This document shows positions 2,789 to 7,205 of a stretch of 20,567 bases of DNA, piece by piece. The translations under genes were made by a program, and so were the position numbers. Origin of the DNA: a virus. Position 1 is the first letter of the stretch, and each line of letters opens with the position of its first letter. The notes under the pieces were generated by a model. It was not told the origin of the DNA, did no database searches, and worked only from the letters and a program-made list of their open reading frames with translations. Location: positions 1 through 20,567 of the IMG/VR virus record IMGVR_UViG_3300027822_000043; one strand, 5' to 3'.

Positions 2789-3735
2789 AAAAGGTTGTAC
2801 TTGATCCAAGAGAGCGCCTTGAACAGCTTTTAGAAAAAGAAGAACGTAAGCTTAAGCGTGAATTTGTTGATGCTGTCCAGCATGTAAAAGACGATATACA
2901 GATAGAGCGTCTTTCAATATTAATAAACCAGGGACGATTTGAAGAAGCGATTGCATTGGCGGGTAGTATTCCTGTTGTTTTAGCAAGCGCTATAAATGAT
3001 ACGGTTGTAACCGCAGGACAAAACACAGCAAAGCAAATAGCAAAGGTAACAAAATTAGAAATCAGATTTGATCAAACAAATGATCGGGCTGTTAATCTAA
3101 TGCGGAATAATCGATTCAGATTGATTCGTGAATTTACAGATGGACAGAGAAATGCCACTAGAGCCGCATTAATTGATGGATTGCAACGCGGTTTAAATCC
3201 AAGAGATCAAGCGAGGGCTTTTCGTGGATCAATCGGATTAACTGAACGGCAAATGGGTTATGTTCATAATTATAGGAAATTGTTAGAAAATAATTCCTCA
3301 GATTCATTACAAAGGCGATTAAGAGACAGGCGATTTGATACAACGGTACGAAGATCAATTGATACTGATACGCCATTAACAAAAACTCAAATTAATAAAA
3401 TGGTTGGGCGCTATCAAGAGCGGTTTATTAAGCATCGGTCAGAAGTAATAGCCAGAACAGAGTCATTATCAGCAATTAATGAAGCGAATGATGAAGCGTT
3501 TCAGCAATCATTTGATGAGGGTATTTTAAATTCCGATGAATTGATTAATGAATGGTTAACTGCACGGGATTCAAGGGTTAGAGAGAGCCATAATGGAATG
3601 AATGGTCAGCAGCGTAAAGAAGGTGAGCCGTTTATAAGTGATGCAGGGAATTTGTTACGTTATCCAGGGGATAGAAATGCGCCAGGAGCGGAAACCATTC
3701 ATTGCCGCTGCACAAAAATTAGACGATTTTCATAA
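2770..3735 (+). CDS. Phage head morphogenesis protein, MuF / SPP1 gp7 family
   Basis: The C-terminal portion has the MuF signature: RTESLSAINEANDEA, then WLTARDSRVRESHNGMNGQ at about residues 260-280, and a closing GAETIHCRC motif with two cysteines near residues 312 and 314. The N-terminal half is helical and charged. In SPP1 gp7 and Mu gpF, proteins of this family bind the portal and are carried in small numbers inside the capsid, aiding assembly and DNA ejection. At 321 aa it is of ordinary length, with no toxin domain fused. The ATG at 2770 lies inside the preceding gene; a second ATG two codons on (2776) is possible. It is the last gene before a 192-nt gap. Confidence 0.85.
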   Translation: MPMQTIEKVVLDPRERLEQLLEKEERKLKREFVDAVQHVKDDIQIERLSILINQGRFEEAIALAGSIPVVLASAINDTVVTAGQNTAKQIAKVTKLEIRFDQTNDRAVNLMRNNRFRLIREFTDGQRNATRAALIDGLQRGLNPRDQARAFRGSIGLTERQMGYVHNYRKLLENNSSDSLQRRLRDRRFDTTVRRSIDTDTPLTKTQINKMVGRYQERFIKHRSEVIARTESLSAINEANDEAFQQSFDEGILNSDELINEWLTARDSRVRESHNGMNGQQRKEGEPFISDAGNLLRYPGDRNAPGAETIHCRCTKIRRFS

Positions 3736-3788
3736 AAGTTTGCAATTATTAAATAAGTGTGTTAACTTTTGATTAATAAGTGAATAAA

Positions 3789-3803
3789 CGCTAGTTCTTA
3801 GCG
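3789..3803 (+). repeat. Perfect inverted repeat in intergenic gap
   Basis: CGCTA and TAGCG form a 5-bp stem around a GTTCT loop. No T-tract follows, so it is not a terminator by itself. It could be an operator, an RNA hairpin or chance. Confidence 0.35.
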
Positions 3804-3833
3804 GAAATCACTTTCATCAGGCAAAAAAAGAAT

Positions 3834-3858
3834 AACCTCATTTGGGGTTTGTATTTTA
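3834..3858 (+). terminator. Possible weak Rho-independent terminator
   Basis: AACCTC (3834-3839) pairs with GGGGTT (3844-3849) to give a 6-bp stem including one T-G pair, with an ATTT loop, and is followed by the T-rich TGTATTTTA. An A-run precedes the stem, so it might act in the opposite direction too. The stem is short and the T-tract interrupted, so this is tentative. Its position about 100 nt after MuF and about 70 nt before the protease gene suits partial termination or attenuation. Confidence 0.35.
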
Positions 3859-3927
3859 ATGCTCCTATTGTGGGCTGTTAGATATTAATTTAAATGTGAA
3901 TTTAGGTTTTATCTATTTAAAAGGTTG

Positions 3928-4329
3928 ATGAAAAAAAACTTTAAAATTGATACAGAAATAGCTAAAGTTGATACTAACTTGGGCCTTGTCATGGGTTGGG
4001 CTATTATCTGTAAACAAGATGGTCAAGATTATTTTGATCTTCAAGAAGATCATATTCCAGAAGAGTCAATGTTAAAAGCAGCTACGGACTTTATGTTAAG
4101 TAGTCGAGCTATTAAAGATATGCATAGAGGCGAACCGTTAGAAGGTGCTGTTGTTTTTTCATTCCCATTAACAACTGAAATTGCAAAAGCATTTGATATC
4201 GAATCAAATAAAACAGGGCTTATGATTGCTATGAAACCTGGCAATGATGGAATATTAGAAAAATTTCGTAGCGGTGAATATACAGGTTTTTCGATTGGCG
4301 GTAGCCGTATAACAGAGGAGGTTGTTTAA
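3928..4329 (+). CDS. Prohead protease core, XkdF-like (peptidase S78_2 type)
   Basis: This 133-aa protein resembles the phage serine protease XkdF domain. It has EDHIPEESMLKAATDFM near residue 40, a KDMHRGE segment that supplies the candidate catalytic His, a beta strand with VVFSFPLT, and the closing GEYTGFSIGGSRI, whose FSIGG is typical of the strand holding the candidate catalytic Ser. Prohead proteases of this group cleave scaffold and trim capsid proteins during maturation. Unusually, the ORF stops just after FSIGG, and the EISxVDRPA strand that normally follows in the same domain starts the next ORF. I chose the ATG at 3928 over an in-frame TTG at 3925 because AAAAGG lies just upstream; the spacing to the ATG is only 3 nt, so initiation may be weak. 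The 3' end overlaps the next gene by one base. Confidence 0.75.
   Translation: MKKNFKIDTEIAKVDTNLGLVMGWAIICKQDGQDYFDLQEDHIPEESMLKAATDFMLSSRAIKDMHRGEPLEGAVVFSFPLTTEIAKAFDIESNKTGLMIAMKPGNDGILEKFRSGEYTGFSIGGSRITEEVV
4316..4321 (+). promoter_or_regulatory. Perfect Shine-Dalgarno sequence for protease-scaffold ORF
   Basis: AGGAGG lies 7 nt before the ATG at 4329, inside the last codons of the protease core gene. It is the strongest ribosome binding site in the window and shows that the downstream ORF starts independently despite the TAATG overlap. Confidence 0.8.
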
Positions 4330-5759
4330 TGGCAAAGAGGATATTACGTGAGTTTAAAATTGATGAAATAAGCTCTGTTGATAGACCGGCACAACAACCG
4401 GCAGTTAAAGTTATTATGAAGCGTCAAGACATTGAAAAAATGTATGAAAATGCAGTAATAACTGACCCTGATGATACAGGTCATTCCCATTTATTGTTTA
4501 TAGAAGGCAGAGCGGGTGAAACGTCTTATGCTCGCGGAGAAGGCGAAGATATGGGGCATGATCATCCGTTTATGGTTAATACAGATGGAACTATCACTAT
4601 TGGTGAGCAATTAGGCCATACACATAAAGTAAGTAGTCCTGATATTATTAATATATTAACTACGCTTGCATCATCAAAAATACTTGCCAGGGATATTGAT
4701 GGTGAGGCAATGGTTGCTTTAAAACAATACTCTACGGAAGAACGAGAAAACGCGATAAACAAGAAAGAATCATTACCAGATGGTTCTTATGTTATTAAAA
4801 ATGAATTAGATTTAAGTTCTGCAATTAAAGTGGTAAAAAAGGACGAAATCAATGTTGCTCAACATATTGCATCAAGAGCAGATGCGCTGGGGTTAACAAA
4901 AAAATTGCCTGATACGGAATTATTTAAGTTAGCTATTCAAAAAAACACCGCTGTAGATGGCGGTTTGAAATCGGAGAATAATATGTCTCAAACCAAGAAA
5001 GCCGCTGAATCTAGTGCGGGTGATGAAACAAATGTAATGGATGTAGAAGGGCTTAAGAAAGCCCAGGATGATCTTGAGGCAGCTAATAATCTGCTTGAAG
5101 AAACCAATAAATCACTTGATGAAGCAAAAGCCACAATTGCAAAAACTGAGTCATTAGCAACCATGAATGATGTGCAAAAAGCGCATTATGACACGTTGGA
5201 AGGTGAGGTTGCCGATGTATTTCTAGAAAAATCATTTGATGAAAGACAAGAAGCGCTTACTGAATTATCAAAAGCGAATAAGGTGATTTATAAGTCACTG
5301 GATGGCACTGAGTATAGAGCAAATGATGATGATCGTTTAGTAAAATTAGCTAAACGTGCTGATGAAGATCATAAGGCGTTACAAAAATCTTTGCTTGAAA
5401 AGAAAGAACTAGAGTTAACTAAACGTGCAGAAGATGAATTAAGTAATTTGCCTGGGAAAGTTGAAACGCATGTTTCTTTATTGAAAGCGATTGATAGCAT
5501 TAAGGATGATACTGAACGTGAAGAGTCATTAAAAGTGTTAAAAGCTCATAATGCGGCGATGTCAGGTGCATTTGAGACCGTTGGCAGTAGTGTTATTTCA
5601 AAAGGGAAAGAAGGTGGTGATCCTGTTGCTGAAATGGATGAGTTAGCAAAATCTTATGCTAAAGAGCATGATATGGAATATTATGATGCTTATGATGCCG
5701 TTGGTAAGAAAGAGCCAGAATTATTGCAAAAAGCAATAACTCATAAACAAGTTATTTAA
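4329..5759 (+). CDS. Protease C-terminal strand + His-rich segment + scaffold polyprotein
   Basis: This 476-aa protein is a mosaic. Residues 1-30 (REFKIDEISSVDRPAQQPA) are the strand that ordinarily completes a prohead protease domain. Residues 50-100 carry three GHxH motifs (GHSH 51-54, GHDH 76-79, GHTH 96-99). Residues about 138-195 (LPDGSYVIKNELDLSSAI ... HIASRADALGLT) resemble a small domain I know from phage capsid and protease proteins, probably DUF6582. From about 219 the chain is charged and helical, with a likely coiled coil at about 239-275, typical of scaffold. Scaffold guides capsid assembly and is then cleaved out. The perfect AGGAGG site suggests high expression. An internal start at 4983 probably makes the scaffold alone. 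How the full product is cleaved cannot be seen. Confidence 0.7.
   Translation: MAKRILREFKIDEISSVDRPAQQPAVKVIMKRQDIEKMYENAVITDPDDTGHSHLLFIEGRAGETSYARGEGEDMGHDHPFMVNTDGTITIGEQLGHTHKVSSPDIINILTTLASSKILARDIDGEAMVALKQYSTEERENAINKKESLPDGSYVIKNELDLSSAIKVVKKDEINVAQHIASRADALGLTKKLPDTELFKLAIQKNTAVDGGLKSENNMSQTKKAAESSAGDETNVMDVEGLKKAQDDLEAANNLLEETNKSLDEAKATIAKTESLATMNDVQKAHYDTLEGEVADVFLEKSFDERQEALTELSKANKVIYKSLDGTEYRANDDDRLVKLAKRADEDHKALQKSLLEKKELELTKRAEDELSNLPGKVETHVSLLKAIDSIKDDTEREESLKVLKAHNAAMSGAFETVGSSVISKGKEGGDPVAEMDELAKSYAKEHDMEYYDAYDAVGKKEPELLQKAITHKQVI
4940..4964 (+). promoter_or_regulatory. Possible -1 slip site and hairpin before the nested scaffold start
   Basis: An in-frame A_AAA_AAC heptamer (4940-4946, codons CAA AAA AAC) is followed at once by ACCGC (4947-4951) pairing with GCGGT (4960-4964). 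A -1 slip would add 11 codons and end at TAA 4979-4981, one base before the nested ATG at 4983. The same heptamer also occurs in frame at the starts of two other genes, where it is probably chance, and the hairpin has no spacer, so this is speculative. Confidence 0.25.
4973..4976 (+). promoter_or_regulatory. Ribosome binding site for nested scaffold
   Basis: GGAG lies 6 nt upstream of the in-frame ATG at 4983, within the coding sequence of the larger protein. Both core and spacing are good, better than for most annotated starts in the window. Confidence 0.6.
4983..5759 (+). CDS. Nested scaffold protein, in-frame internal start (258 aa)
   Basis: The ATG at 4983 is codon 219 of the larger ORF and has GGAG at 6-nt spacing. 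Translation from here gives MSQTKKAAESSAGDE, a polar flexible start, then a predicted coiled coil (KKAQDDLEAANNLLEETNKS), then charged helices to the shared C-terminus, which has several tyrosines (YAKEHDMEYYDAYDA). This has the form of a free-standing scaffold and parallels lambda, where scaffold Nu3 starts inside protease gene C and shares its C-terminus. In-frame overlap lets the phage make a few protease-linked scaffolds and many free ones. The existence of the start is inferred from the ribosome binding site, its position at the domain boundary and the lambda precedent. Confidence 0.6.
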   Translation: MSQTKKAAESSAGDETNVMDVEGLKKAQDDLEAANNLLEETNKSLDEAKATIAKTESLATMNDVQKAHYDTLEGEVADVFLEKSFDERQEALTELSKANKVIYKSLDGTEYRANDDDRLVKLAKRADEDHKALQKSLLEKKELELTKRAEDELSNLPGKVETHVSLLKAIDSIKDDTEREESLKVLKAHNAAMSGAFETVGSSVISKGKEGGDPVAEMDELAKSYAKEHDMEYYDAYDAVGKKEPELLQKAITHKQVI

Positions 5760-5776
5760 ATTAAGAGGATAAAATT

Positions 5777-6172
5777 ATGAGTAGTGAAAGTACACGGTCT
5801 ATTTCTTTACAGCCGACGGTTGCTAAGGTAATTAATGCTAATCGATTTGCTGTTTTAGCATCAGGTCTTGTTGATGAAGCTGGGGCAGGCGATGATGCAC
5901 TTGGTGTAACATTAAGTGAATCACCAGACTCAACAACAGCCGGTGCCGAGGCTGGTAGTGCGGCTATTTCAGTTGCTCTTCTTGATGGTGCCAAAGTTGA
6001 AGTTGAAGCTGGGGCTACAGTTGCATCAGATGCAAAGGTTGCCTCTGATGCAACAGGACGAGCAGTAACCGCAGCAACAGGTGATGCAATATTGGGAACA
6101 GCGCTTATTGGTGGTGCTGTAAATGAAGTAATAACGATCATTGCCGCAAAAGGCGCGGCTTTGTCAGCGTAA
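5777..6172 (+). CDS. Capsid decoration / cement protein, DUF2190-like (131 aa)
   Basis: The layout fits phage decoration proteins of the DUF2190 type: a short N-terminal arm, then small beta segments with much Ala, Gly and Val (FAVLASGLVDEAGAGDDALG, then VSLLDG-like and VEAGATVASDAKVASDATG turns), and an Ala-Gly-rich ending (LIGGAVNEVITIIAAKGAA). Such proteins bind the outside of the shell as trimers and stabilise it. It has almost no aromatic residues and no Cys. A good AGAGGA site at 5764-5769 stands 7 nt before the ATG, in line with a high-copy protein. It lies directly between scaffold and major capsid genes, which is the usual place. Long minus-strand reading frames opposite are shadows of its alanine codons. 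Confidence 0.75.
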   Translation: MSSESTRSISLQPTVAKVINANRFAVLASGLVDEAGAGDDALGVTLSESPDSTTAGAEAGSAAISVALLDGAKVEVEAGATVASDAKVASDATGRAVTAATGDAILGTALIGGAVNEVITIIAAKGAALSA

Positions 6173-6197
6173 CGTTTAATAAAACAGGAGTAATAAG

Positions 6198-7205
6198 ATG
6201 CCTATTGTATCTAACCCAACCGAAGGGGATGTTCATGTTAACGTTCCATTGACAACTTTTGCCCAGAAGATTTTGCTTAATGCGAGTATGTTTGTTGGCA
6301 TGAACGCAGTACCTAATGCGCCTAGTGCGAAAGAGGCTGATTTATATTTTGAATTTAATAGCGGTGATTTCTTGCGTGATGAAGCGGAAGAGAGAGCCGA
6401 TGGTACGGAGTCTGCTGGTAGCGGCTTTAGGTTGTCAACAAACCCGTATTATTGCCGAACATATGCTTTTCATAAAGACGTAACTGATCGGCAGCGAGCG
6501 AATCAAGATAATGTTATTCAGCTAGATCAATCTGCGGCGCAATTTGTGACTCAAAAATTACTGATTCGTCGAGAGCGTGTGTTTGCAAATGCTTATATGG
6601 GTACTGGAAAATGGACGACAGATATGACTGGTGTTACTGGCACGCCAGCAGCAGGACAATTTCAGTTTTGGGATGAGTCAGGTAGCGACCCCGTTCAGGA
6701 TATTCGATTAGCAAAAACAACAGTGCAAGGATTAACAGGTTATAGGCCAAATAAAATGGCGATAGGCCGTCAAGCATTAGATGCATTAATGGATAATGAT
6801 GCATTGTTATCACGTATAACTGGTGGTGCCACTACAGCTATACCAGCATTAGTTATGCGCGAATTAATAGCTCAGCTTTTTGAATTAGATGCCATTTATG
6901 TTATGGATTCTGTTTATAATGCGAAACTAGCTGATGCAACTGATCCAAGTGCTGATGATGTTCAGTTCATAGGAAGTGATGATGCATTGCTATATTATGC
7001 GCCAGATAGTGTCGGTATTGATGAACCAACAGCTGGAATACAATTTAGTTGGACAGGTTATTTAGGTGCAACACCTTCAGGTATGAGAATGAAGCGAATT
7101 AGAGCTGACTTGAAAAATGCGGATAGAATTGAGGGCGAAATGTCTTTTGATTATAAATTGACAGGCCCAGATTTAGGTTATTTTTTCAGTAATACTGTGG
7201 CATAA
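6198..7205 (+). CDS. Major capsid protein (335 aa)
   Basis: Position after scaffold and decoration genes, size, and the strong AGGAG site (6186-6190, 7 nt from ATG) identify the main shell protein. The sequence fits an HK97-fold coat protein of the group lacking a long N-terminal delta domain. The N-terminal arm (NVPLTTFAQKILLNASMFVG) leads into an extended-loop-like region (RADGTESAGSGFRLSTNPYYC), the long spine helix around ANQDNVIQLDQSAAQFVTQK followed by LLIRRERVFANAYM, a P-domain stretch with NKMAIGRQALDALMDN, and a C-terminal beta region ending with GYFFSNTVA. No obvious cleaved delta domain is present, in keeping with a separate scaffold. Family assignment is by pattern and context; the role is fairly sure. 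Confidence 0.85.
   Translation: MPIVSNPTEGDVHVNVPLTTFAQKILLNASMFVGMNAVPNAPSAKEADLYFEFNSGDFLRDEAEERADGTESAGSGFRLSTNPYYCRTYAFHKDVTDRQRANQDNVIQLDQSAAQFVTQKLLIRRERVFANAYMGTGKWTTDMTGVTGTPAAGQFQFWDESGSDPVQDIRLAKTTVQGLTGYRPNKMAIGRQALDALMDNDALLSRITGGATTAIPALVMRELIAQLFELDAIYVMDSVYNAKLADATDPSADDVQFIGSDDALLYYAPDSVGIDEPTAGIQFSWTGYLGATPSGMRMKRIRADLKNADRIEGEMSFDYKLTGPDLGYFFSNTVA

Follow-up and report, generated by a model that had tools for sequence, protein, structure and literature searches.

The locus described here raises the question of whether one long open reading frame among the head genes of a siphophage conceals a second gene. The DNA analyzed (hereafter the window; 20,567 bases with siphophage head and tail genes) encodes a 476-AA protein in ORF2 (4329–5759, + strand), and an earlier note on this sequence had proposed that the capsid scaffold is translated separately from an ATG within it. 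Our analyses indicate that the window likely carries a conserved, unannotated nested scaffold gene together with a protease encoded by two genes, and that a long and a short form of the ORF2 product would both be translated.

The internal ATG lies at position 4983, i.e., codon 219 of ORF2, and is preceded on the same strand by a GGAG Shine-Dalgarno sequence (4973–4976) at a 6-nt spacing (AATAAT); the letters are thus as the earlier note had read them. Translation of the nested gene (4983–5759, +) would yield a scaffold protein of 258 AA that begins with MSQTKK and has a pI of 4.8, and its calculated in-frame size of 28.6 kDa agrees with the product of about 28 kDa that had been anticipated. 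To list the starts available in ORF2, 12 ATGs and 12 GTG/TTG codons were considered at spacings of 4–10, and ATGs with a Shine-Dalgarno sequence of at least 4 nt were found only at codons 1 (AGGAGGT), 75 (AAGG) and 219 (GGAG). Exact Shine-Dalgarno matching replaced an RNA-duplex energy score, which was dropped because it chose codon 128 in the window and odd spacings elsewhere. Synonymous resampling of the window (400 resamplings) produced the codon 219 Shine-Dalgarno sequence in 0.75% of cases, and the chance argument for the internal start is modest on the window alone, where it is weak evidence. The 4-nt GGAG of the window is also short in comparison with the AAGGAG(G) of many relatives. 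RNA folding predicted a small hairpin at 4973–4990, in which GGAG pairs with UCUC directly 3′ of the internal AUG, and this pairing could weaken the internal site. The hairpin could also couple internal initiation to ribosomes arriving from upstream. A promoter scan of the region 3700–6300 gave 9 promoter-like sites vs. 8.4 in shuffles; with no excess over the shuffles, a nested transcript is therefore unsupported.

Relatives were gathered from phage records (17 matching, all with <60% identity) and from IMG/VR loci (the best 80 of 215 relatives via the protease, and 18 via ORF2), and no relatives were found in single-protein scans of viral_contigs and genome_contigs. The N-motif and the scaffold were encoded in one ORF in 93 of 109 records and in separate ORFs in 4; 3 records had no N-motif match, and 9 had no scaffold match and were left out of the start counts (L018, L019, L038, L039, L041, L045, L071, L089, and L090). 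Removal of a copy of the window (L001) left 92 ORFs, which formed 68 clusters at 80% identity. The phages Tedan (L002) and S0112 (L007) stand outside these clusters; the N-motif profile missed both, yet both have the internal site. For scoring we used the region from 90 codons before the scaffold domain begins to 8 codons into it, and tied ATGs were resolved to the later one (e.g., in L006 and L033).

An in-frame ATG with a Shine-Dalgarno sequence of at least 4 nt was present just before the scaffold domain in 66 of the 68 clusters, the two without it being L050 and L060, although such cluster counts are not independent events because the clusters share ancestry. In the same linker region a Shine-Dalgarno sequence of at least 5 nt was found in 46/68 clusters, and one of at least 6 nt in 26/68. 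Control regions gave 23/68 (at least 4 nt) and 4/68 (at least 5 nt) inside the scaffold domain, 27/68 and 6/68 in the N-terminal part of ORF2, and 14/68 and 2/68 in the linker read in the +1 frame. Among the remaining ORFs of these loci that were 250 AA or longer, an internal ATG with at least 5 nt was found in 12/191 cases vs. 44/65 for ORF2, a comparison covering 65 of the 68 clusters, and a 4-nt Shine-Dalgarno sequence preceded other internal M[TPSA] sites of related ORFs in 19/151 cases. Ten loci from bacterial genomes, independent of the setting of the rules, had the site in 9/9 cases with a scaffold domain, the tenth being cut off. The letters, registers and residues that form the Shine-Dalgarno sequence vary between lineages.

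The expectation that the ATG and its Shine-Dalgarno sequence are kept in relatives where synonymous sites are free to vary held when the alignment check was run. Protein-preserving synonymous shuffles gave a mean of 51.1 clusters (sd 2.5) at the threshold of at least 4 nt, and none of 300 reached the observed 66; because of this conservation the internal start stands well above chance. At the threshold of at least 5 nt the shuffles gave a mean of 33.6 (sd 3.0) and 0/300 reached 46, and at that of at least 6 nt the observed count was reached by 2/300. The shuffles also bear on the alternative that the 476-AA protein is the sole product and that the ATG and GGAG arise as by-products of a flexible linker rich in Lys and Glu. 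Much of the start-site signal does reside in the protein sequence as well, since a K-E-x-x-M content favors AAGGAG and the shuffles still give 51/68. Such a by-product would not, however, account for the clusters beyond that level, and in the N-terminal part and the scaffold domain Shine-Dalgarno-led ATGs were no commoner than in synonymous shuffles. When the Met was chosen blind to the Shine-Dalgarno sequence, from protein features only, the sequence was present in 54/64 cases and absent in 10/64, vs. 36.1 (sd 2.6) expected from synonymous codon resampling, with 54 reached in 0/400. The residue following the internal Met was small (T, P, S or A) in 55/66 cases, compared with 166/446 for background Mets, which also speaks against a mere linker effect.

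A further argument against the linker alternative comes from natural variants, in which separate scaffold genes begin at the same boundary. Three lineages (L016/L017, L061 and L088) encode the strand part and the scaffold separately; each scaffold gene there has an ATG of its own ahead of the scaffold domain (with GGAG in L016 and AGGAG in L061). We therefore consider it unlikely that the internal start is a linker by-product, and favor the nested gene. In L117 and L118, a single ORF holds a strand, a catalytic domain, a linker and the scaffold, and has an internal ATG preceded by AGGAG. Judged from these sequences, the scaffold either has a gene to itself or occupies the 3′ end of a longer one, which encodes a strand-scaffold fusion in some loci and a complete protease-scaffold protein in others; in each of the three states it has a putative start of its own. 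As to the order of the protease parts, the strand precedes the catalytic domain in L115 (cut off), L117 and L118 (e.g., L117:3752–5413), and the protease appears to be circularly permuted. An EIS.VD.PAQ-like strand comes first in these three loci vs. following in the next gene in the window's group.

The arrangement could be followed in ten phage regions, and in all of them (10/10) the boundary carries an internal ATG in frame with ORF2. The window's gene order and a Shine-Dalgarno-led internal start in ORF2 are shared by the Xiamenvirus phages RDJL Phi 1 and 2 (AAGGAGG) and by RDJL6 (AAGGAG); in RDJL Phi 1 the internal start is codon 146 of gp72, and the putative short form begins with MPNDK. 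The same gene order, with an internal start in ORF2, is found in Pseudomonas phage KPP23 (AAGG), Shewanella phage S0112 (GGAGG) and Ruegeria phage Tedan (GAGGAG), as well as in Rhizobium phages RHph_Y52 and Y5A (AAAGGA in the two RHph phages, with a longer spacing) and Erythrobacter phages R6L and ZS04 (AGGAG). No CDS is annotated at the internal start in any of the ten regions (0/10), which bears out the suspicion of the earlier note that a nested gene of this kind would be missed. We found no report in the open literature of a nested gene or a split protease in the window's phage group; the available part of PMC3070671 does not mention gp72 of RDJL Phi 1, and the words “scaffold” and “protease” are absent from the available part of the R6L paper (PMC5463345). 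The scaffold would thus lie unannotated, inside a “hypothetical protein”, across marine roseophages, a Pseudomonas phage, rhizobial phages and many uncultivated phages. From this arrangement two gene products would be expected in place of the single one listed, and selection on synonymous sites can reveal nested genes that ORF callers miss.

The internal ATG lies just before the scaffold part, as the earlier note had put it. The profile match of the conserved C-terminal scaffold domain (5154–5759, +) begins at codon 276, and in the AF2 model of the short form (mean pLDDT 90.7) residues 1–20 are loose and are followed, from residue 21, by a long helix and a helical core, so that a helical scaffold fold is predicted. 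A search of PDB structures with this model gave 23 matches, none at E ≤ 0.001. Against viral proteins the model had significant matches, the best in RDJL Phi 2; none is annotated as a scaffold, and all are unannotated or unnamed except one labeled SICAR synthase. Between the terminal strand and the nested gene, ORF2 contains a His-rich linker module (GHSH ... GHDH ... GHTH; 4479–4625, +), recognized in the alignment and retained in many contigs as well as in RDJL phages, which is a possible metal site.

In the window and in the phage regions the scaffold gene is located between the protease and the cement and major capsid genes. In the window these are a gene for a probable cement/decoration protein (5777–6172, +; Phage_cement_2 E 0.011, below cutoff) and the major capsid gene (6198–7205, +; phrog_1005 E 5.9e-75). 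The 131-AA protein of 5777–6172 could itself be the true scaffold, with another role for ORF2, and it does match phrog_673, labeled head scaffolding protein, with E 3.1e-12. Its positional equivalent KPP23_086 was, however, detected in virions by mass spectrometry, as expected of a cement protein, and the match to Phage_cement_2, though weak, points the same way. The published KPP23 virion list includes gp080, 086, 087, 091 and others, and the homologues 084 and 085 are absent from it; the absence of KPP23_085, the ORF2 homologue, rests on this one list and is weak evidence. Taken together, these data make a scaffold role of the 131-AA protein quite improbable. The place of the nested gene, the acidic and helical character of its product, and the lack of KPP23 084/085 in the list fit a scaffold and a protease that leave the particle. 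With KPP23_086 present in virions, the phrog_673 label on 5777–6172 may mislead annotation of the group.

A short form could also arise if the long form were cut by a protease within the linker, without internal initiation. Scaffolds of protease-encoding phages are in general cleaved in maturation, as is also stated in the available text of PMC8508860, but cleavage needs neither an ATG nor a Shine-Dalgarno sequence nor selection at synonymous sites, and we regard this origin as very unlikely. That the scaffold can exist alone is evident from L016/L017, L061 and L088, where an independent gene with a separate start encodes it.

The earlier note had described ORF2 as a protease-scaffold ORF, and here only the scaffold part stood, as the catalytic domain is encoded by the upstream gene and ORF2 contributes only a strand. 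ORF1 (3928–4329, +; 133 AA from ATG 3928, with an alternative TTG start at 3925 also open) matches PF14550 (XkdF, Peptidase_S78_2) with E 2.3e-10 and 41 bits vs. a cutoff of 24, and would encode the catalytic part of an XkdF-type prohead protease. Its His (DMHRG) and Ser (GFSIGG) are invariant in 11 sequences and in a 55-row alignment. A search of PDB sequences with the ORF1 profile gave one weak match only (E 0.25). The best PHROG of ORF1, phrog_1530 “DNA methyltransferase”, was rejected, its label being probably carried over from fused proteins. Some phage records in L008, L009 and L011 carry the DNA methyltransferase name for the protease gene. The ATG of ORF2 (4329) overlaps the stop of ORF1 (TAATG) and follows an AGGAGGT Shine-Dalgarno sequence (4316–4322, +) at 6 nt. 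The long form encoded from it (4329–5759, +; 476 AA, 52.6 kDa) has no Pfam match and matches phrog_24785 (function unknown) with E 9.6e-49.

The first ~32 residues of ORF2 are predicted to be the missing C-terminal strand of the ORF1 protease (MAKRILREFKIDEISSVDRPAQQPAVKVIMKR; 4329–4424, +), on the basis of profile continuity and of an AF2 model of a relative. When ORF1 and the ORF2 N-terminus were joined, profiles of single-chain head maturation proteases matched across the junction of the concatenate: phrog_34096 improved from E 1.3e-4 (profile positions 124–232) to 1.7e-8 (124–290), and phrog_9427 from 2e-4 (14–126) to 1.4e-8 (14–178). Peptidase_S78 also crosses the junction, weakly (E 0.033, below cutoff). 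The fold model was made for the ORF1+ORF2 fusion of the relative L034, with an AF2 alignment that contained two fused rows for the strand, and reached a mean pLDDT of 77 and a pTM of 0.72. In it, residues 147–160, which come from ORF2, form a strand with high local confidence, predicted to complete the protease barrel. The model range 1–163 superposes on T4 gp21 (5jbl) with Z 14.9 and 2.1 Å over 137 residues; herpesvirus proteases come next with Z 5.4–6.5.

The two parts of the protease lie in different ORFs in 105/105 loci in which both were found (108 examined). The strand starts at most 60 nt from the ORF1 stop in 87/105 loci and farther away, up to 1.6 kb, in 18, and in several of the distant cases another ORF lies between ORF1 and the strand. 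Programmed frameshifting that joins ORF1 and ORF2 into a single protease-scaffold chain would explain why the protease domain is divided at a gene boundary, but is most improbable given the strands lying >60 nt past the ORF1 stop in 18/105 loci, several behind another ORF, and given the relative frames of the two ORFs (32/29/7 over 68 clusters), which are mixed, so that frameshifting is not the link. In L020, L021, L053 and L056 an extra ORF of ~110 AA, alike by eye, lies between the protease halves. In L034 (5468–5473) the ORF1 stop TAA is directly followed by the in-frame ORF2 ATG, so that read-through would join the protease halves.

For the two-gene protease with a nested scaffold, the following sequence of events can be proposed. 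Translation from 4329 would give the long form, in which the last protease strand is joined to the scaffold, and translation from 4983 would give the 28.6-kDa nested form as the bulk scaffold. The catalytic protease would be made from 3928–4329 and completed by the N-terminal strand of the long form. The long form would then co-assemble with the short scaffold and bring the protease into the procapsid, where cleavage of the scaffold may take place. We infer that both forms are made, that the short one outnumbers the long one, and that the protease is tethered by the strand. A tentative extension, possible though rather doubtful, is that the scaffold activates the protease: ORF1 would be inactive until a long form in the scaffold core donates the last strand. 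With the protease split over two genes, its activation would then be tied to assembly of the procapsid; the internal start, if this extension is true, would determine how much strand-bearing (activating) scaffold is made relative to the plain form. The two-gene arrangement suggests how a capsid protease might be held in check before assembly.

Among known systems, T4 gp21 resembles the fold modeled for ORF1 with the ORF2 strand. T4 gp21 is one chain, and the T4 scaffold is encoded by a separate gene; in the window's group, in contrast, the protease is spread over two genes. The herpesvirus UL26/UL26.5 pair is alike in its related protease fold (L034 model; Z 6.1–6.5 for HCMV and pseudorabies virus) and comprises a protease-scaffold long form and a scaffold-only short form in one frame. 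Herpesviruses make the short form from a separate nested transcript, whereas the signal in the window is a Shine-Dalgarno sequence.

In lambda C/Nu3, one gene specifies a long product that joins the protease to the scaffold, and an in-frame start within its 3′ part serves for translation of the scaffold. The window likewise has an in-frame internal start with a ribosome-binding site before the scaffold, and to this extent the lambda-like layout proposed earlier stood. It did not extend to a whole protease within the host ORF, as the catalytic protease of the window is a separate upstream gene with only the last strand fused to the scaffold, nor to a gpC-type protease: lambda gpC is ClpP-like, whereas the window protease has the predicted fold of XkdF, T4 gp21 and herpesvirus proteases. 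The protease-scaffold link thus takes a two-gene form here. In the available text of PMC8508860, the protease and scaffold of lambda and P2 are given as single-gene, and a ClpP template was used for a lambda-like protease. For Mu I/Z, the available text of PMC4378225 describes a protease gene that contains an in-frame scaffold start and a plausible Shine-Dalgarno sequence for it, together with a putative internal start at Val177 in gene 27 of the Mu-like phage PaMx73. Both Mu I/Z and PaMx73 gene 27 differ from the window in having a single protease-scaffold gene, where the window protease spans two genes. By analogy, the nested scaffold of the window would work like that of lambda C/Nu3 or Mu I/Z.
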